Shown here: positions 4,840 through 64,000 of the stretch, in pieces
Position numbering within the stretch: the first letter of the stretch is position 1
Layout of the letters: each line of letters starts with the position of its first letter
From: Trogon surrucura
Lineage: Eukaryota > Chordata > Aves > Trogoniformes > Trogonidae
NCBI GenBank assembly: GCA_020746105.1
Contig: CM036629.1
Location: 2,673,501 to 2,737,500 of the forward strand
Length of the DNA: 64,000 nucleotides
Direction of reading: 5' to 3'
The notes under the pieces: generated by a model
The model's database searches: none
Seen by the model: the letters and a program-made list of their open reading frames with translations, nothing else
What the model was told of the DNA's origin: nothing
Program-made: the position numbers and the translations under genes

Positions 4840-5552
4840 TAATGGCTGTAAAAGGGCAGGGACGCGGACGGCAAAGCGCCGTCCCGGGGCTTTTCTTGCG
4901 GGGGGGGGGGGGGGGAGAGCAGCACAAAAGGAGGGGAGGGGGCGGCGGGGGAGGCAGCAGTGATGGAGGAGGGAGCAACGCGGGCAGGGGGGGCTGCAGC
5001 GCGAATCCCCGCGTGGGGCCGCTGATAAACCCCCTCGCTGGGGAGGGGGAAGGTTGTAAATACCCCCACGGGAGGGGGGTCTCTCTGCACCCCCCCGCAG
5101 CCAGCCGCCCGAGCCGGGCTGGCGGCAGGCGGGCGGGGGTGGGGGGCGGCAGCGGCTCGTTCCTCCCCCCCGGCTCCCCCCCTGGGCGGGCAGGTCGCGG
5201 CGGGGGGAGCCGGGGAGGAGCCGGGCCGGGGGCGCCGGGGCCGGGGAGGCGGCGGGCAGCCGCCCTTCCTCCGCGCCGCCGGCGGGACCCAAACTTTCGC
5301 ACCGAACTTTTATTCCTTTTTTTTTTTTTTTAAAGAAAAAAAATTGTTTGGCTTTTTTTTTTTTTTTTTTAAATATCTTTTCGTTGTTGTTGTTGTCGGC
5401 GGGTTTTGTTTTGATTTTTTTTTTTCTTCCCTAGTTGCCTTCTCCGCGGCGGGAGGAGGCGGGCGGTAGCGGAGGTGGGGGGGGAGGGCTCCGCAAACCC
5501 GCCCCCCGAGCCTGCGTGTCCGGCGGAGCCGCGGGATGAGCCGGGGGCGGCG
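4840..5552 (+). promoter_or_regulatory. CpG-island promoter and 5' leader of the CxxC-repeat gene
   Basis: Very GC- and CpG-rich DNA with G-rich tracts directly abuts the coding exon and continues into it, as is usual for vertebrate CpG-island promoters. Three T-rich runs (about 5313-5326, 5353-5370 and 5415-5425) interrupt it. The last forms a polypyrimidine tract before CTAG at 5431-5434, a plausible splice acceptor, so the coding exon may start at 5435 as exon 2. Otherwise the leader is one continuous 5' UTR. No clear TATA box is seen inside the island. Confidence 0.6.
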
Positions 5553-5556
5553 ATGA
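5536..5556 (+). CDS. six-codon upstream ORF overlapping the main start codon
   Basis: ATG at 5536 opens a frame of six codons (MSRGRR) ending at TGA 5554-5556. That stop shares bases with the main ATG at 5553-5555, giving an ATGA overlap. The ATG has G at -3 and A at +4, so it can plausibly be recognised by scanning ribosomes. In eukaryotes such short upstream ORFs usually lower translation of the main frame and make it depend on leaky scanning or reinitiation. Whether it is in the mature leader depends on the transcription start, which is not visible. Confidence 0.5.
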   Translation: MSRGRR

Positions 5557-7508
5557 GCGCGGCGGGGCCGGGGGCGGCGGCGGCGGCGGCGGCGGGGCCG
5601 CTCCTCTCCCGCAAGCAGCGGCTGATGGCCGCCTTGGCGACCGGCGAAACGGCGGTGGCGACCGGCCCGGGGGCTCCTCAAGCCCCGGCCGTGCCTCCTC
5701 CTCCTCTTTGCTGCTTCATCTGCGGCGGCGGCATCAGCCGCGGCAAAGAGCTGAAGCTTCAAGTTCGACCCCCCCGAGACCACCGACCCTTCTTCCCGTT
5801 CCTCCAGCACCAGGAGCCGGCTCCCGGCGCCCGCGCCGTCTCGGCGGAGGGTTGCGCCTTGGTCTGCGCCGTCTGCCGCTGTTTTTTGGGCGAGCAGTGG
5901 GACTCCTTCGAGCGCAGCCGCACGCCGGTGGAGAAGCGCATGTACTGGCTCAAGCGGCCCCATCAGTGCGAGGCGGCGGCGGCGGCGGCGGCGGGGGGGG
6001 GAACTGGGCTGCGGCGGGGGGCCACGGGCTGGGACCCCGGCGCGCCGCCGCGCCCCGCCGCCGGCCAGGAGGAGGAGGAGGAGGAGGAGGAAGAAGAGGA
6101 GGAGGAGGAAGGGCCGGCAGCCGGCTCCGAGCTCTCCGAGCTCTCCGACGCCGAGCCCCTCTCGGAGCCCGAGGGGGCGGGCGGCGCGGCTCGGACCCCC
6201 CCGGTGGCGGCGGGTAAGAGGGGGGGCCCGCCGTGCTGCTCGTCGGAGGACAGCGAGATCAACATCACCAGCGAGGAGGAGGAAGAGGAGGAGGAGGAAG
6301 GCGGCGAGAGGCCCGCTTGGGCATCCTCGGGCACCGCCTGCTACATCTGCGGCAGCCCCTTGTCACCCGGCGCCCAGCACCGCGTCCACGTGCAGAAGCA
6401 GGAGAAGACCTCGCCGGCGCCTTTCTTCCCCTTCCTCTGGCTCCACAGCCCCCCGCCCGGCGCCCAGCCCCTCTCGCCCGCCGGCAGCACCCTGGTGTGT
6501 CCCTGCTGCTTCGCCTCCCTCATGCAGCAGTGGCAAAGCTTCGAGCTGGCCAACGTGCCCGTCCTGCAGAGGCTCTACGTGGTGCCCCTCAACGCCGGCG
6601 CCATGCCCGCGAAAGGGCGGCGGGGGCTGAAGGAGGATGGGATGGGCATCCCGCCGGTGCCCGAGGCTTGCTACCTCTGCGGGGAGGAGTGTGGCAAGGA
6701 GGCGAGGGCGGTGGCGGCCAAGATCACCAACGGCAACGCGAAGAGTACCATGCATTTCCCCTTCCTCAGCCTCCTGCCTTGCCCGCCTGGCGCCAAGGGG
6801 CTGAACAAGCACTGGGAGGTGAGCAGCTGCCGCAAGTGCTTCGGGGTCTTGCAGGACCTGTGGGCCATGTACAGGGCCTGTCACAACGAGGAGCTCATCA
6901 CCTCGGTGCAGAGCTTCCTGGGGAGGTACCACCAGGTCTTCTCTGCCTGTGATGCTGGTGGCCTGGCCGGCCACCCCGCCATCAAACCTGGTCCCACGTC
7001 TGTCTGCTACATCTGCGGCGCCGAGCTGGGAGCCGGCAAAGAGTTCCAGCTCAACGTCAACCCGCCGGGACGATTTGGGGAGAAGGAACCCTTTTTCCCT
7101 TTCCTGACCGTCTACCCCCCGGCCCCGCGGGCCAGGCCGGCCGACTCGACCGGGCTGGTGGCCACCTGTGTCCTCTGCTACCATGACCTTCTGGGGCAGT
7201 GGCTGCAGCACGAGGGCAGGAATTCCCACCACCCCAGCAGCGCCTGGTCCCGACAGTACAAAGTGGAGACCTTCGTCTGCTTCTTCTGCCGGCAGGAGAA
7301 GAAGCGATGCCTTGGATTAAAAGCGGTTCAAGTGGCCAGGCTCCCCATCTTCCTCTACACCCTCCGCGTGGCCAACAGCTTGCTGGTGGATGACGGGAAG
7401 CAGCTGATCATCGGCGCTTGTGCCGAGTGCGGTGCCGTGGTCCTGGCCGGCAAGAGCATGACCCCGCCGGAGCTGCTGACAGTGGCACCCCCGGCTCTCG
7501 TCCCCAAG
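5553..7508 (+). CDS. large coding exon of an unnamed protein with five CxxC/FPFL zinc-binding-like modules
   Basis: Encodes 652 residues, starting MSAAGPG and ending ...PALVPK at a phase-0 donor. Residues 1-50 are rich in Ala and Pro. Five modules follow, each a CxxC pair, then 43-50 residues, then a second CxxC pair: C54/C57 with C105/C108; C263/C266 with C316/C319; C373/C376 with C426/C429; C485/C488 with C539/C542; and a diverged fifth, C576/C579 with C623/C626. The first four open with CFICG, CYICG or CYLCG and carry FPFL at 81-84, 292-295, 402-405 and 515-518. Modules 1, 2 and 4 also share a QW or QWxSFE-like stretch after the second pair. Four cysteines per module suggest structural zinc sites (inference). 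An acidic linker joins modules 1 and 2: Glu14 at 173-186, a Ser/Glu stretch, and Glu9 at 241-249. No signal peptide or membrane segment is seen. The start was chosen as the first in-frame ATG, with G at -3; the frame extends upstream to 5475 without an ATG. A nuclear adaptor or chromatin-associated role is a guess. The C-terminal part must lie in later exons. Confidence 0.85.
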
Positions 7509-7514
7509 GTAAGG
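7509..7514 (+). other. 5' splice donor of the large coding exon
   Basis: The sequence CCCAAG|GTAAGG matches the vertebrate donor consensus well, and the exon ends between codons (phase 0). Without splicing the frame adds only 26 low-complexity residues and stops at 7587-7589, just past the last CxxC module. That favours the donor being real. Confidence 0.8.
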
Positions 7515-10500
7515 CGGTTGGCCCGGACCCCATCCCTCCCCTCCCGGCATTTTCCCAACTCTGGCGTGGAGGAGGAGGTGGAGCGGTGACATAGATGGAT
7601 GCTCTTCTTTTGGGTCTGAGGGCGAACGCTAATGGATGGGGTGCCTTTAGCAATGAACTTTTGGAGCTGCCAAGCGGCGAGGGAGCGAATAAAAAAAATC
7701 CTTCCAAGAGGTGGGGAGCGCCAAGACCTGTCCCATGGCAGAAGCGTGTGTCCTTGGCATTGGTTCCTGCTCACTCACAGCCCTGTGCAAGGGAGGTGGG
7801 GGCCAGCAGGGAAGAAATCCCAATCCCATACCCGTCGCCATCAAGAGTGATCAGAGGTGCCAGAGGGAAGGGAAGGATGCTGCCCAGCCCATCCTCCACG
7901 GCAGCATCCTTGGGAAACTGGAAGGAGCGCGTGGCCTCTGCCGCCATAGAAAACTTCCCAAGTTATCTGTTTTTCTAAGAGCTCTTTAATCAAAGGGTTT
8001 TCGCTTGGAGAAACCCCAGCCCTTCCCACAGGTGGGAGTGGGGGGGCTGATGTGCAGGGCTGGGTGCCCCCAACCTGTGCTGCTCTGGTTATCCTGCAGC
8101 CAGGGACCCCCAGGCAGCATCCAGCCCCCCGAACTGCTGCGACGAAACCCCACAGCCCTGAAGGGTGTCGTGGGTGTCATCGCCTGGGTGCTGCCAGTTT
8201 CCCCAGTTGCTCTTTTCTGCATCTCCTGATGGGGTTAAGGAGGGTGCTTCGGGAGCATCACCTAGGAAGCGGCACGGCACAGCAGAAGTCTACTAGTCAC
8301 AAGCTTGCATTTCTCGTGGGATGGGGAAATAACTGCTTTTACCCCCAAATTTCAAGCTTGCCAGCAATGTGCTGGTCTGTATCTGCAAACCAGGCCCCAG
8401 GCTGGGCTCTGTAAAATGCCAGCATCCTAAATCCCCGAGTTCGTTTTCAAAGTCTTCCAGATCCGTTCGTAGCCAGAACCCTGCGGCTCTCCGAAACGCT
8501 GGCATTTTCTTTAGAAATGTAAACCAGCCTTTCCAAGACAGCGCTCCTTTTCTCTCCGGTCGCTCTCCCTTGGCTGGTTACAAATATAATTTTCCGTTCA
8601 GCCTTGCCGGCTCCTGACTTGGGGGGAAGTCTGCTTGGAAGGCCACTGGGCAGGAGCTGCGTGCACCGGGGGTCGGTGCGTGGTGCCGGTGCAGAGTGCC
8701 AGGATGGGGTGGGAGATTGGGTTGACAGCAGTGATGGGAATCCTCCAGGAGCCATCACTTCTGGCCAGTTTTCCCCAAGCTCCGTCGGCCCGAATCGGAC
8801 ATGCCCAACTTAATTGCAGGTCATTTGTGGATGCGGATGGTTTTGTTGTCAGGCTCGCCCACCCAGGAGCTTGTTTCCAGCCGACGTGACTTGCTGTGCA
8901 CGGAGGTCTCTGAGGGGATGGAGACCCTCTGATGCGACGCCGCGTGAGTTGTGATGCCCGCGTGGCCACAGCAGCGCTGCCCGTCTGTCTGTCCATCCCG
9001 TGGGTCTGTTGGCATTTGCAAAGTGCTGGAGCCCTTGCTGGCTGGTGGCTACGGAGAGCTCAGGAGTCAGGAGAGCGTCCTGGGGGGGTGATGCTGGGGT
9101 GATGCTCGAGCAGAGCCCAGGTGGGTGTAGCTGGTGAGGAGGGGGTGACATCTGCATGTCCCCAGCTGGTGTTTCACACCTCTGTCCCCATAATACCATG
9201 AGGACACTATGACAGCAATTCTGTCCCAGCTCTGGTGCCAGCGTTGGGTGCTCAGGGGTGCTTCCCGTGGGGTTCTTTAGTGACCCTCCTGGAACCCAGC
9301 ATTTCTCAGTCCTCATCCCTGCTGGCCCCAGCCCCAAACTCCCTCTTGGGCTCCTGCCTGCAGCCCCGTCTCCAACCCGAGCAGCTCTGAAAAGCTTTTG
9401 TGTGGGGCTATGAAAGGCGGAGGGGGAGGAGGAGGAGGACGCGGAGGGTGTCCTGGGGAAGGGATGCTATTCAGTTCCTCCCTCTTGTTCCCAGGTTTGC
9501 TAATGAGCAAATTAAGGGGCTGCTACAAGGGGCAGGGTGGCAGGAAGCAAAGCAGAGCTGCCTGGGGAGGGCACAGCTGATTCAGGGACTGGTTTACTTT
9601 GCTGGGCTCTGCCGTGTCCCGGTGGTGACTCTCTGGCTGGCCAGAAAGTCCTCTTGCTTTATCCCTCCCTGTCTCCACATGCTTCCCATTGGGCTGAGAC
9701 CTCACAGATGTCGTGGTCATTTAAAACATGGCTTAATGCTTGGGTTGGGTGCTTGGCTAATTTAACTGTGCCCTTTGTTCAGGCACTTGCTGCTGAAAGT
9801 CACCACGGACCAGTCTTTTTGCCTCTGTGTGACGCCCAGGACCCTGTTCAGATGGAACCAGGCGGGAGGGAATGAGCCTGAAGTGTTAAAACCATCTCTC
9901 TGTTCCTCCTTGTAGTAGCTCTGTTACTTCATTTTTTGATTGTACGTGCTTTTTCACACACCCGGGGTTGACGTAGGGCTGGTGGTTTGCTAATGTCCTG
10001 ACTGCTCAGATGACTCAGAGTTCGAGGCACCGGTTAAATGCACCAGATGCCACCAGGGATCCCTGCATCCCCTTCTCGTAGCAGGGCAGCAGGAGCAGGA
10101 TGGGGCTCAGGTCCACCTTAGAGGTGCTAGCGAGGGAGCCCCACACCTGAGGCTCGTCAGGAGGGCGGAGGCTCTGCTATTTTGGGTGGGGTGATGCCTC
10201 TGCTGCTGGTTTGGTGTGTGGGAGCAGTGAAGCAGGTGGAGGTGTGGTGGTACTTGTGGTCCTACCTGCTGCAGGAGAGTCTCCTGGAGGTAAGCTTGCA
10301 GAAACCTTACTGTTACTGGCTTGTGTGGAGTGGGTTTGGGTTCTCCACCAAGAAAAAAGGGGCAATGCTGAGCTTTGGTAAGGGTACGCTAGCACGGCTG
10401 TCCTCTGACTTGTCACCCTTGGTCCCCTCCAAGCTGTGCAGATGTGTGCCTTGAGGATGCATCCTCTTTCTAGCCCTGCCCCTTGCAAGGGTGACCTGTG

Positions 10501-43489: not shown

Positions 43490-43549
43490 GGGGGGTGGTG
43501 TGAGCCCCAAAGGGTGCGTTGGAAGCCGAGGGGGCTCACACCACCCCCC
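43490..43549. repeat. inverted repeat with perfect 19-bp arms
   Basis: The left arm at 43490-43508 (GGGGGGTGGTGTGAGCCCC) is the exact reverse complement of 43531-43549, separated by a 22-base loop. It lies in a GC-rich region with several open frames and can form a stable stem-loop in RNA or single-stranded DNA. Confidence 0.95.
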
Positions 43550-48450: not shown

Positions 48451-49013
48451 ATCCTGCCGTCATCCCCGTGGGTCCTGCTGGTGTCCCCGTGGGTCCTGCT
48501 GGTGTCCCTGTAGGTCCTGCCATCATCTCCATGGGTCCTGCTGGTGTCCCTGTGGGTCCTGCCGTCATCTCCATGGGTCCTGCTGGTGTCCCTGTGGTCC
48601 TGCTGGTGTTCCTGTGGGTCCTGCCGTCATCTCCATGGGTCCTGCTGGTGTCCCTGTGGGTCCTGCTGTCATCTCCATAGGTCCTGCTGGTGTCCCCGTG
48701 GGTCCTGTTGGTGTCCCCATGGGTCCTCCTGGTGGCCCTGTGGTCCTGCTGGTGTCCCTGTAGGTCCTGCCATCATCTCCATGGGTCCTGCCATCATCCC
48801 CATGGGTCCTACTGGTGTCCCTGTGGGTCCTGCCGTCATCTCCATGGGTCCTGCTGGTGTCCCCATGGGTCCTACTGGTGTCCCTGTGGTCCTGCCGGTG
48901 TCCCCATGGGTCCTGCCGGTGTCCCCATGGGTCCTGCCATCATCGCTATGGGTCCTGCTGTCGTCCCCATGGGTCCTACTGTCGTCCCCATGGGTCCTGC
49001 CGGTGTCCCCATG
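48451..49013 (+). repeat. 21-bp minisatellite with two alternating unit types, about 27 copies
   Basis: All units begin GTCCTGCY. Type A continues GGTGTCCC plus C/T and ends GTGG/ATGG; type B continues ATCATCTCCATGG. A and B units alternate in recurring groups, giving a higher-order pattern. Most copies are 21 bases, so a seven-residue collagen-like peptide (Gly-Pro-Ala-Gly-Val-Pro-Val) is read, but three 20-base copies shift the frame. That argues against coding. Confidence 0.9.
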
Positions 49014-49510: not shown

Positions 49511-49722
49511 AATGAGAGACGGGTGATGGCAAATGCTGCGTCCTGCCGGCTTGGTGTCCTCCGTGCCCTCCCGGGCTGTCACCTCGCTCCTCAAGGGTGA
49601 CCGTGTCCCCTTGGATGTCATCACTGGTGGCTTCTTCAACTGTGGTCCATTCGTGCATCCCCAGCCGCAGGCTGGACACGGAGGGATGAGGGTCTCCCTG
49701 GCTTTGGGCTGCTTGGAGTGAG

Positions 49723-50342
49723 GATGTCTCTCTCCCAGGGATGGCTCCTTCCCTGGGACACCTCCCCACGGATGACATCTACCCAGGGATATCTCCTTGC
49801 TGGAGGTTTCTCCTTCCTGGGGATGGCATCTTCCAGGGGATGTCTCCTTCCTGAGAACATCACCTTCCCAAAGACGTCTGTTTGTTGGGGACATCTTCCT
49901 GGAAACATCTCCTTCCCGTGGACCGCATTTTTCTGGGGACATCTCCTTCCCGGGACATCTCCTTCCCAGGGATGTCTCCTTCTCAGAGATATCTCCTTCC
50001 CAAAGACCTCTGTTTCAGCGGACATCCTGTGGACTGCGTCTTCCCGGAGATGTCTCCTTCCTGAGCACATCTACTCCCCAGGGACCACGTATTCGTGGGA
50101 CATCTTCATCCCGGGGCTGTCTCCTTCCAGGGGATATCTCCTTCCCGAAGACCTGTGCTTCTTGGGGACATCTCCTTCCTGAGGACCACATCTTCCTCGG
50201 GATATCTCCTTCCCAGGGACAGCTGCTTCCTGGGGGCATCTTCCTGGGAACATCTCCTTTCCAGGGACCACGTCTTCCCAGGGACGTCTTCCCAGGGACA
50301 TCTTCCCAAGGATATCTCCTTACTGGTGACATCTTCCCAGGT
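49723..50342 (+). repeat. 17-bp minisatellite, about 37 copies
   Basis: Core unit is approximately ACATCTCCTTCCCAGGG. Some copies are shortened to 11-14 bases or extended to 18. Divergence is high, so the array is old or maintained loosely. Frames through it give Ser/Pro/Gly/Arg-rich peptides with no domain; not coding. Confidence 0.9.
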
Positions 50343-52069: not shown

Positions 52070-52597
52070 TGTCACCCTGTCCCCGTTGCCACCCTGTGCC
52101 CATTGCAACCCTGCCGAAACCCATCTCCTTTGCCACCCCATCCGTGTTGCCAACCTGTCCTTATTTCCACCCGGTTGTCACCCCATCCCTATGGCCACCC
52201 GGTCCCCATGGCCATCCTGTCCCCATGTTCACCATGTCCCCATGTTCACCATATCCCCATGGCCACCCCATCCCCATGGTATCCCCAACCTCATGGCCAC
52301 CCTGTCCCCATGGTCAGCCTGTTCTTATTTCCGCCCTGATTCCATGACCACCTCCTGTCCCCATTGCCACCTCCTGTCCCCATTGCCACCCTGTCCCCAT
52401 TTCCACCCTGTTGCCACCTCATCCTTGTTTCTACCCCATCCCCATCACTACCACATTCCAGTTGCCATCTCATCCCCGTCGTCACCGTATCCGTATATCC
52501 ACCCTGTCCCCATGGCCACCCCATCCTCATTTCCACCCTGTCCCCATGGCCAGCCCATCCTTATTTCCACCCCGTCCCCGTTGCCACCCCGTTGTGC
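52070..52597 (+). repeat. 17-bp minisatellite, about 31 copies
   Basis: Unit near CCACCCTGTCCCCATGG with variants (ATCC, TTATT, GTTG at the end). Pyrimidine-rich on the plus strand. Adjacent copies keep a 17-base period over several units. Distinct in sequence from the 17-bp array at 49723-50342. Confidence 0.9.
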
Positions 52598-61963: not shown

Positions 61964-62033
61964 CCCTCCCCGACCGACCCCGCGGCGCCGCAGAGGTGCC
62001 CCTCCGCGGCGCCGCGGGGTCGGCCGGGGAGGG
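61964..62033. repeat. 70-bp imperfect palindrome
   Basis: The sequence folds back around a centre near 61998/61999. Bases 61964-61991 pair with 62006-62033 with a single mismatch, and four further pairs form in the middle. The inner 17-bp arms (61975-61991 and 62006-62022) are perfect. Extremely GC-rich. As a result, near-identical Pro/Arg-rich peptides are predicted on both strands here. Confidence 0.95.
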
Positions 62034-62599: not shown

Positions 62600-62960
62600 C
62601 TGGGCTGTAATTACCGCACGCGGCGCTTTGATTGCTCCATTCCAATTAATTAAACCCGGCGGTGACCCAAATTATGATCCCTTGTCTTGTCGAGCGCCGT
62701 ATTTTTAACCTTAACTGGCTGGGCTGCGTTTAGATTTCCAATCCGGGCAGAAATGTCACCCGGGGAGAGTGACTGGCGTTGAACCCAGCCTTCCCGTGAC
62801 GAACCCCGTAATTAGAAACCCTCGTGTCCCCGAGACGGGTCTTTAAAGCTGTCAGAAGCCAAGATCCAGCCATTTGATACAAGACTATCATTAGCTGCGC
62901 CCAACCTATTAGCTGCAGGTAAATAACAGGCTGTACCGGAGCCGGGGAACAGGCGGGTTG
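62600..62960. promoter_or_regulatory. candidate conserved enhancer
   Basis: About 350 bases with GCTGTAATTACCGC, CTTTGATTGCTCC, CCAATTAATTAAACC, CAAATTATGATCCC, CCGTAATTAGAAACC, ATCATTAGCTGCG and ACCTATTAGCTGC. Repeated TAAT cores and TAGCTGC strings suggest clustered homeodomain-type sites. No open exon. Confidence 0.45.
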
Positions 62961-63096
62961 GGGAATTGGTTGGTTCTTAATTAGGAGAAGCGGAGCGAGG
63001 GATGCTTTTCCCCTCTAATTGCCTTCGTTAGCAGCCCCGGGTATGCGTCCTCTTGCTTGTATCCCCTTTCTCAGCGCGGGGATGGCCGAACGTCCC

Positions 63097-63192
63097 TGTC
63101 TTCTCGCCGCGGTGCCCGTCCCACCCGCTGTCCCGGCATCGCCGCGGCGATGCCGGGACAGCGGGTGGGACGGGCACCGCGGCGAGAAGACA
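63097..63192. repeat. perfect 96-bp palindrome with no spacer
   Basis: Bases 63097-63144 are the exact reverse complement of 63145-63192, checked base by base: 48-bp arms, no mismatch, no loop. Symmetry fails at 63096/63193. The centre is GCCGCGGC. The same peptide (ARPTRCPGIAAAMPGQRVG) is therefore read from both strands. Perfect zero-spacer palindromes of this size are unstable in cells and also arise as sequencing or assembly foldback artefacts, so reality should be confirmed. Confidence 0.97.
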
Positions 63193-64000
63193 TTTCCTGG
63201 GGATGGAGAGGGATTGATGGTCTCGGGATAAATCTGGGCTTAAAACCCGATGGTTTGCCTGGGTGGCACATTCTGTTGGTTCGAAGGGCTGGATGGAAAA
63301 TCAATCACCGGGGCTGTTTCCGTCTCCCCCCACTCCTCCCGCCCCTTCAACCAACTGCGTTTTTAATTTGCGGGGCTGCGGGGTTCGTGCGGCGAGGATC
63401 CATCTCTATTTGTGTCAAGCGCCGGCGTCTTTGTCTCGTTGACGCGGCTGCATCGTCCTTCCCAGCCTGGGTCTTGGGGTGAAGATGGGTGCTGACCAGA
63501 GTGGAGCAGGGGGGGGTCTTTATCCTTCTTGGAGGCTTTTTCCTAGCGTGGAACTGCCCTTCTTTCCAGAGGGAGGTGGTATGGGGGCACGGCATGCCTC
63601 GTGTGGGGAAACTGAGGCGCGGTGCGATGCGATCTGCTCCGCTGGCTGGATGGGGATGCCATCCTGCTCTTGCTATCCCCTCCACCCGGAGGACCAACCC
63701 CCCCGTAGCCACCGTATGAGGCTGGTGAACACCGTGGGGGGGCTGGGAGAGAGCCAGCAGCGGTGCCGACCGCCTGGCCCTCGCCGGCCTGCCCCCGCCT
63801 GATGCCTCTCCCGCAGACGCTCTCCCTGACACTGGCTGACAAGAGCCATTTCCAAGATGGATTGATTCAATTTAGCACCGATTTTTTGCCGGGGCCGGTG
63901 ACGTACGGCTCCCCAGCCGGCGCTGGGCGGCACGTGACTCCCCAGCGCCCGCCGTCATTAGAGCAGCTCAGCACCGGCTGCCGCAGCCCGGCTCGCCTAA
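63193..64000 (+). other. non-coding sequence to window end
   Basis: GC-rich sequence with one copy of the recurring GGGGAAACTGAGGC motif (63605-63620), a small AT-rich stretch near 63850 (GGATTGATTCAATTTAGC) and a CpG-rich end from about 63880. No exon recognised. Confidence 0.5.

Follow-up and report, generated by a model that had tools for sequence, protein, structure and literature searches.

A perfect spacer-free 96-bp palindrome in Trogon surrucura, probably due to templated inverted insertion

Introduction

Inverted copies of adjoining sequence have been described in apes and in yeast. In the gold-standard set of short template switches in great apes, the inverted fragment has a reported median of 12 nt and a maximum of 128 nt, and 65.0% of the events lengthen the sequence (PMC7954356); template switches are also reported to be able to make perfect stems in one step (PMC8794818). 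In yeast, the insertions that arise from foldback repair of breaks are inverted and range from 2 to about 150 bp, with the majority under 14; they are captured by end joining and, according to the genetic tests reported there, depend on DNA polymerase delta and on end joining (PMC11724301). At the tip of a hairpin, 4-5 nt are described as staying unpaired even in perfect palindromes (PMC8053094).

Palindromes themselves have been counted on a large scale. The human catalogue reports 69,888 palindromes over 50 bp, 783 of them of 100-200 bp (PMC7680136), numbers which, according to PMC7999016, tolerate up to four mismatches and therefore do not stand for perfect palindromes alone. The longest palindromes of this catalogue are AT-rich, and a GC content above 80% is given for only 2% of palindromes (PMC7680136). 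A survey covering 118,019 genomes reports that in eukaryotes perfect inverted repeats predominantly lack a spacer and that those without spacer are disproportionately AT-rich (PMC13155455). The PATRRs of the human genome are near-perfect palindromes of about 200 to 595 bp with more than 90% AT (PMC7999016). For birds, no survey of short perfect palindromes appears among the titles listed on palindromes, cruciforms, hairpins and template switching, and long palindromes in chicken lymphoma are the subject of PMC2444050. Palindromic sequence can also be produced technically, foldback reads being a known artefact of long-read sequencing in which a sequence is followed at once by its own reverse complement, so that the later half of the read aligns to the same place as the earlier half but on the opposite strand (PMC12870357).

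Here, a palindrome in a 64-kb stretch of contig CM036629.1 of Trogon surrucura (the window) is compared with these systems. A preliminary description had offered three readings of it, namely a recent inverted duplication, a structure-forming site or a foldback artefact of sequencing or assembly.

Results

Structure of the palindrome

The two arms of the palindrome are exact reverse complements of each other at 48 of 48 positions with a spacer of 0 (Table 1), and its previous description as a perfect 96-bp zero-loop palindrome is thus exact in coordinates, arm length, absence of spacer and absence of mismatch. The further remark that places the start of the right arm at the centre is true as well, the centre lying between 63144 and 63145 and separating the GCCG and CGGC halves of GCCGCGGC, but it is uninformative since the same holds for any spacer-free palindrome. 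From base composition, 7e-24 spacer-free inverted repeats with arms of at least 48 bases are expected per 64-kb window, and in 50 Markov-chain shuffles of the whole window no exact arm exceeded 14 bases with a spacer of up to 20, the maximum with a spacer of 0 being 11 bases. The palindrome is therefore far beyond chance expectation. Palindromes of 10 bases number 95 in the window, the one at the centre included.

Table 1. Positions in the window of the 96-bp palindrome and of the other close inverted repeats
Feature	Positions	Strand	Description
Left arm	63097..63144	+	48 bp, 75% GC
Right arm	63145..63192	-	exact reverse complement of left arm, spacer 0
Central 10-base palindrome CGCCGCGGCG	63140..63149		possibly a pre-existing turn-back seed
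Second close palindrome	61964..62033		arms 33, 31/33 paired, 4-base spacer; RNA fold z -9.3
Inverted repeat	43490..43549		arms 19, 19/19 paired, 22-base spacer
Inverted repeat	5163..5220		arms 19, 18/19 paired, 20-base spacer, rich in C/G runs, weakest of four

As single-stranded DNA, the segment 63040-63250 is predicted to fold with the palindrome fully paired except for its four central bases, at -85.7 kcal/mol (z -12.0), a value as low being found in 0/200 shuffles. Beyond the arms, no mirror symmetry was detected: comparison of the 300-base left flank with the reverse-complemented 300-base right flank gave a score of 11, which was matched or exceeded in 165/300 plain letter shuffles. The symmetry of the palindrome thus ends abruptly on both sides. 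A switch in strand composition is seen at the centre, with a pyrimidine fraction of 0.60-0.71 near the left arm (tiles starting 62996-63092) and of 0.35-0.40 near the right arm, and it does not decide which of the two arms is the original.

Other close inverted repeats in the window

When mismatches were allowed, 4 inverted repeats scoring at least 13 with a spacer of up to 30 were present in the window, whereas 20 local shuffles averaged 0.1 and never gave more than 1 (Markov chains in 250-base blocks, used for both counts of close repeats). The second close palindrome stands 1.1 kb upstream of the 96-bp palindrome and its predicted fold is very stable. Both of its mismatches are A versus G, one of them CA versus CG, as ordinary decay would give. 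It looks like an older, decaying palindrome and may go back to an earlier event similar to that which made the 96-bp one. The perfectly paired repeat at 43490 could be another turn-back copy arising from the same kind of event.

Exact inverted pairs of at least 11 bases were then counted by distance, with tandem and simple repeats masked as judged on the left copy only, a filter by which the repeat at 5163 was removed. With spacers of 0-30, 31-100 and 101-300 there were 8, 7 and 4 of them respectively, where 20 shuffles averaged 0.9, 2.45 and 7.05 (maxima 3, 6 and 11). The excess of inverted repeats is consequently confined to short spacers, with none at 101-300. Direct pairs of at least 11 bases, counted as a control, amounted to 11, 15 and 29 at the same spacers for shuffle means of 1.9, 4.8 and 7.8; their excess lies outside the masked tandem arrays, is present at all spacers and, unlike that of the inverted pairs, does not fade with distance. 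As direct repeats are also in excess, part of the inverted excess may reflect local low complexity.

Sequence setting

The window has a GC content of 61% (0.53 to 0.67 per 2-kb tile) and a CpG observed/expected ratio of 0.56, and consists of A, C, G and T only, so no gap is written in it as N. Homopolymer runs and minisatellites occur, the latter including arrays at 48463-49013 (unit of about 21 bases), 49722-50317 (14-17 bases) and 52179-52592 (17-34 bases). By its composition and general features the window would be taken for vertebrate nuclear DNA, probably avian. A search with four 8-base motifs of a bird retroelement tail returned 1 match in the window, which proves nothing.

Nowhere in the window did a sequence match Rfam at gathering score, and an RNA gene was accordingly rejected as a candidate. 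Four frames of the window were compared with Pfam. The frame that spans the palindrome, 62985-63479, had no Pfam match and coding sequence at the palindrome was rejected on this basis. Among the frames listed, the longest has 724 codons (5415-7589, + strand); it lies 55 kb from the palindrome and was also without Pfam match; its product carries repeated motifs of C-x-x-C type (CFICG, CYICG, CYLCG), and its single weak match among PDB sequences, HMGB1 (E 0.00029), is taken to be an alignment of acidic runs.

Sequence of foreign origin was also looked for. No exact match of a 27-base piece of one arm was present in viral contigs, nor of a 29-base piece of the other arm in prokaryote genomes, and a phage or plasmid insert was rejected because 62900-63400 showed no similar DNA among phages and plasmids at E 1e-5. 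These results are as expected of animal DNA and say little about animal elements.

Discussion

Comparison with described palindromes and inverted copies

Judging from the figures reported in the two surveys, the size and the zero spacer of the palindrome are unremarkable for a vertebrate, arms of 75% GC being less common. The preliminary statement that such palindromes are rarely seen in genomes is overstated in view of the numbers given in the human catalogue (PMC7680136) and of the predominance of zero spacers reported in eukaryotes (PMC13155455). With the PATRRs (PMC7999016) the palindrome shares near-perfect symmetry, a location in apparently noncoding vertebrate DNA and the potential to extrude; however, at 96 bp and 75% GC it has neither the length of hundreds of bp nor the AT content above 90% that characterize them.

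Short-range template switches as described by the four-point model (PMC7954356, PMC8794818) are one-step copies of adjacent sequence as its reverse complement, of tens of bases and able to leave a perfect stem. The palindrome likewise holds a reverse-complement copy in cis that adjoins its source (48/48), and its 48 nt fall within the reported ranges of both the ape (PMC7954356) and the yeast (PMC11724301) events, in the upper tail of each. It differs from the ape events in its length, 48 bases as against a median of 12, in its zero spacer and in being known from one sequence alone. With the yeast foldback insertions (PMC11724301) it has in common a local inverted duplication whose far junction is unrelated, whereas the yeast events are described with a 10-bp imperfect inverted microhomology and a 41-nt spacer and the palindrome is spacer-free. 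A 10-base palindrome does lie at its centre, where a foldback seed would be sought, but within a perfect palindrome such a seed is indistinguishable from the copy.

Proposed origin

Taken together, the palindrome is probably a real templated inverted insertion, made in one step by replicative template switching or foldback break repair in noncoding vertebrate-like DNA. The 48/48 arms, the flanks that are neither mirrored nor duplicated and the overabundance in the window of inverted repeats with short spacers are all observed and support this origin; the mechanism and the direction of the event are inferred. In such an event, a 3' end would turn round during replication or repair and copy 48 nt of the adjoining sequence as reverse complement. 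Its template would be either the strand to which it belongs, with a small palindrome like the central one serving for priming, or the sister strand. The 3' end would then go back to its template or join the other end of a break, so that two joins would be required, the turn-back and the return. A single event of this kind would leave two perfect arms, zero spacer, unrelated flanks and sharp edges. Turning back on the same strand would need a small palindrome already in place, given the 4-5 nt left unpaired at hairpin tips, while a switch to the sister strand would need no pre-existing central palindrome; the evidence fits same-strand as well as sister-strand copying, and either arm as the original. 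The length of the arm, about four times the median of ape template switches, counts against an insertion.

Among the three readings offered beforehand, inverted duplication fits best, with its 48/48 arms, no spacer and unmirrored flanks. That the duplication was recent is plausible in a broad sense. The mutation rate of birds is about 2e-9 per site and year, and by simple arithmetic with this rate the 0 differences in 48 pairs would be compatible with any age below about 16 million years (95%), a bound to which the word recent applies only loosely.

Alternative explanations

An artefact of sequencing, library or assembly, in which a chimeric hairpin read or a fault of the assembly graph doubled one arm, appears unlikely, even when artefacts of any sort are included. 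Foldback reads are a known artefact (PMC12870357) and the perfection of the arms is as expected of something freshly made. In the artefact as described there, however, the read doubles back over itself on the opposite strand, whereas in the palindrome the mirror image is limited to 48 bases and gives way to ordinary flank, the flank-to-flank score being of the size found in shuffles, and an artefact would consequently need a second fault. The absence of N in the window and the decayed palindrome of like build 1.1 kb away also speak against it. The foldback read suggested in the preliminary description is therefore a poor fit.

A structure-forming site maintained by selection, or by correction of one arm from the other, is very improbable, whether as cruciform, binding site or hairpin RNA. 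The very stable predicted fold of the single strand is in its favor, as might be a position between AT-richer stretches that gives an impression of nearby regulatory elements, but neither Rfam in the window (at gathering score) nor Pfam in the frame across the palindrome provided a match, and a single event without selection accounts for one perfect pair of arms; no evidence of a selected site was obtained. Least probable of all is a small mobile or foldback (hairpin-type) element inserted at the site, for which the compact inverted repeat with sharp edges would be suited, since no target-site duplication is present at any length of 3-11 bases tried and no second copy exists within the window, where the best match to an arm elsewhere is 14 bases.

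Significance

Templated inverted insertion, a process already known, is thus the most likely origin of the palindrome. It could be imagined that the GC-rich region is a hot spot where polymerases turn back again and again and create palindromes with short spacers. The four repeats of the window (48/48, 31/33, 19/19 and 18/19 paired) would then be stages of decay, with the 96-bp palindrome as the youngest, a proposal which we regard as unlikely. If close inverted repeats proved to be in excess throughout the genome, short template switching would be indicated as a frequent process in GC-rich regions. If transcribed, the palindrome would yield a new and perfect hairpin with about 46 pairs, which might serve as raw material for a small-RNA gene. 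With source and copy both intact, it could help to measure the length limits and the decay of inverted copies in GC-rich vertebrate DNA. Otherwise it amounts to a single mutation of no known consequence, long and rich in GC but ordinary in kind.
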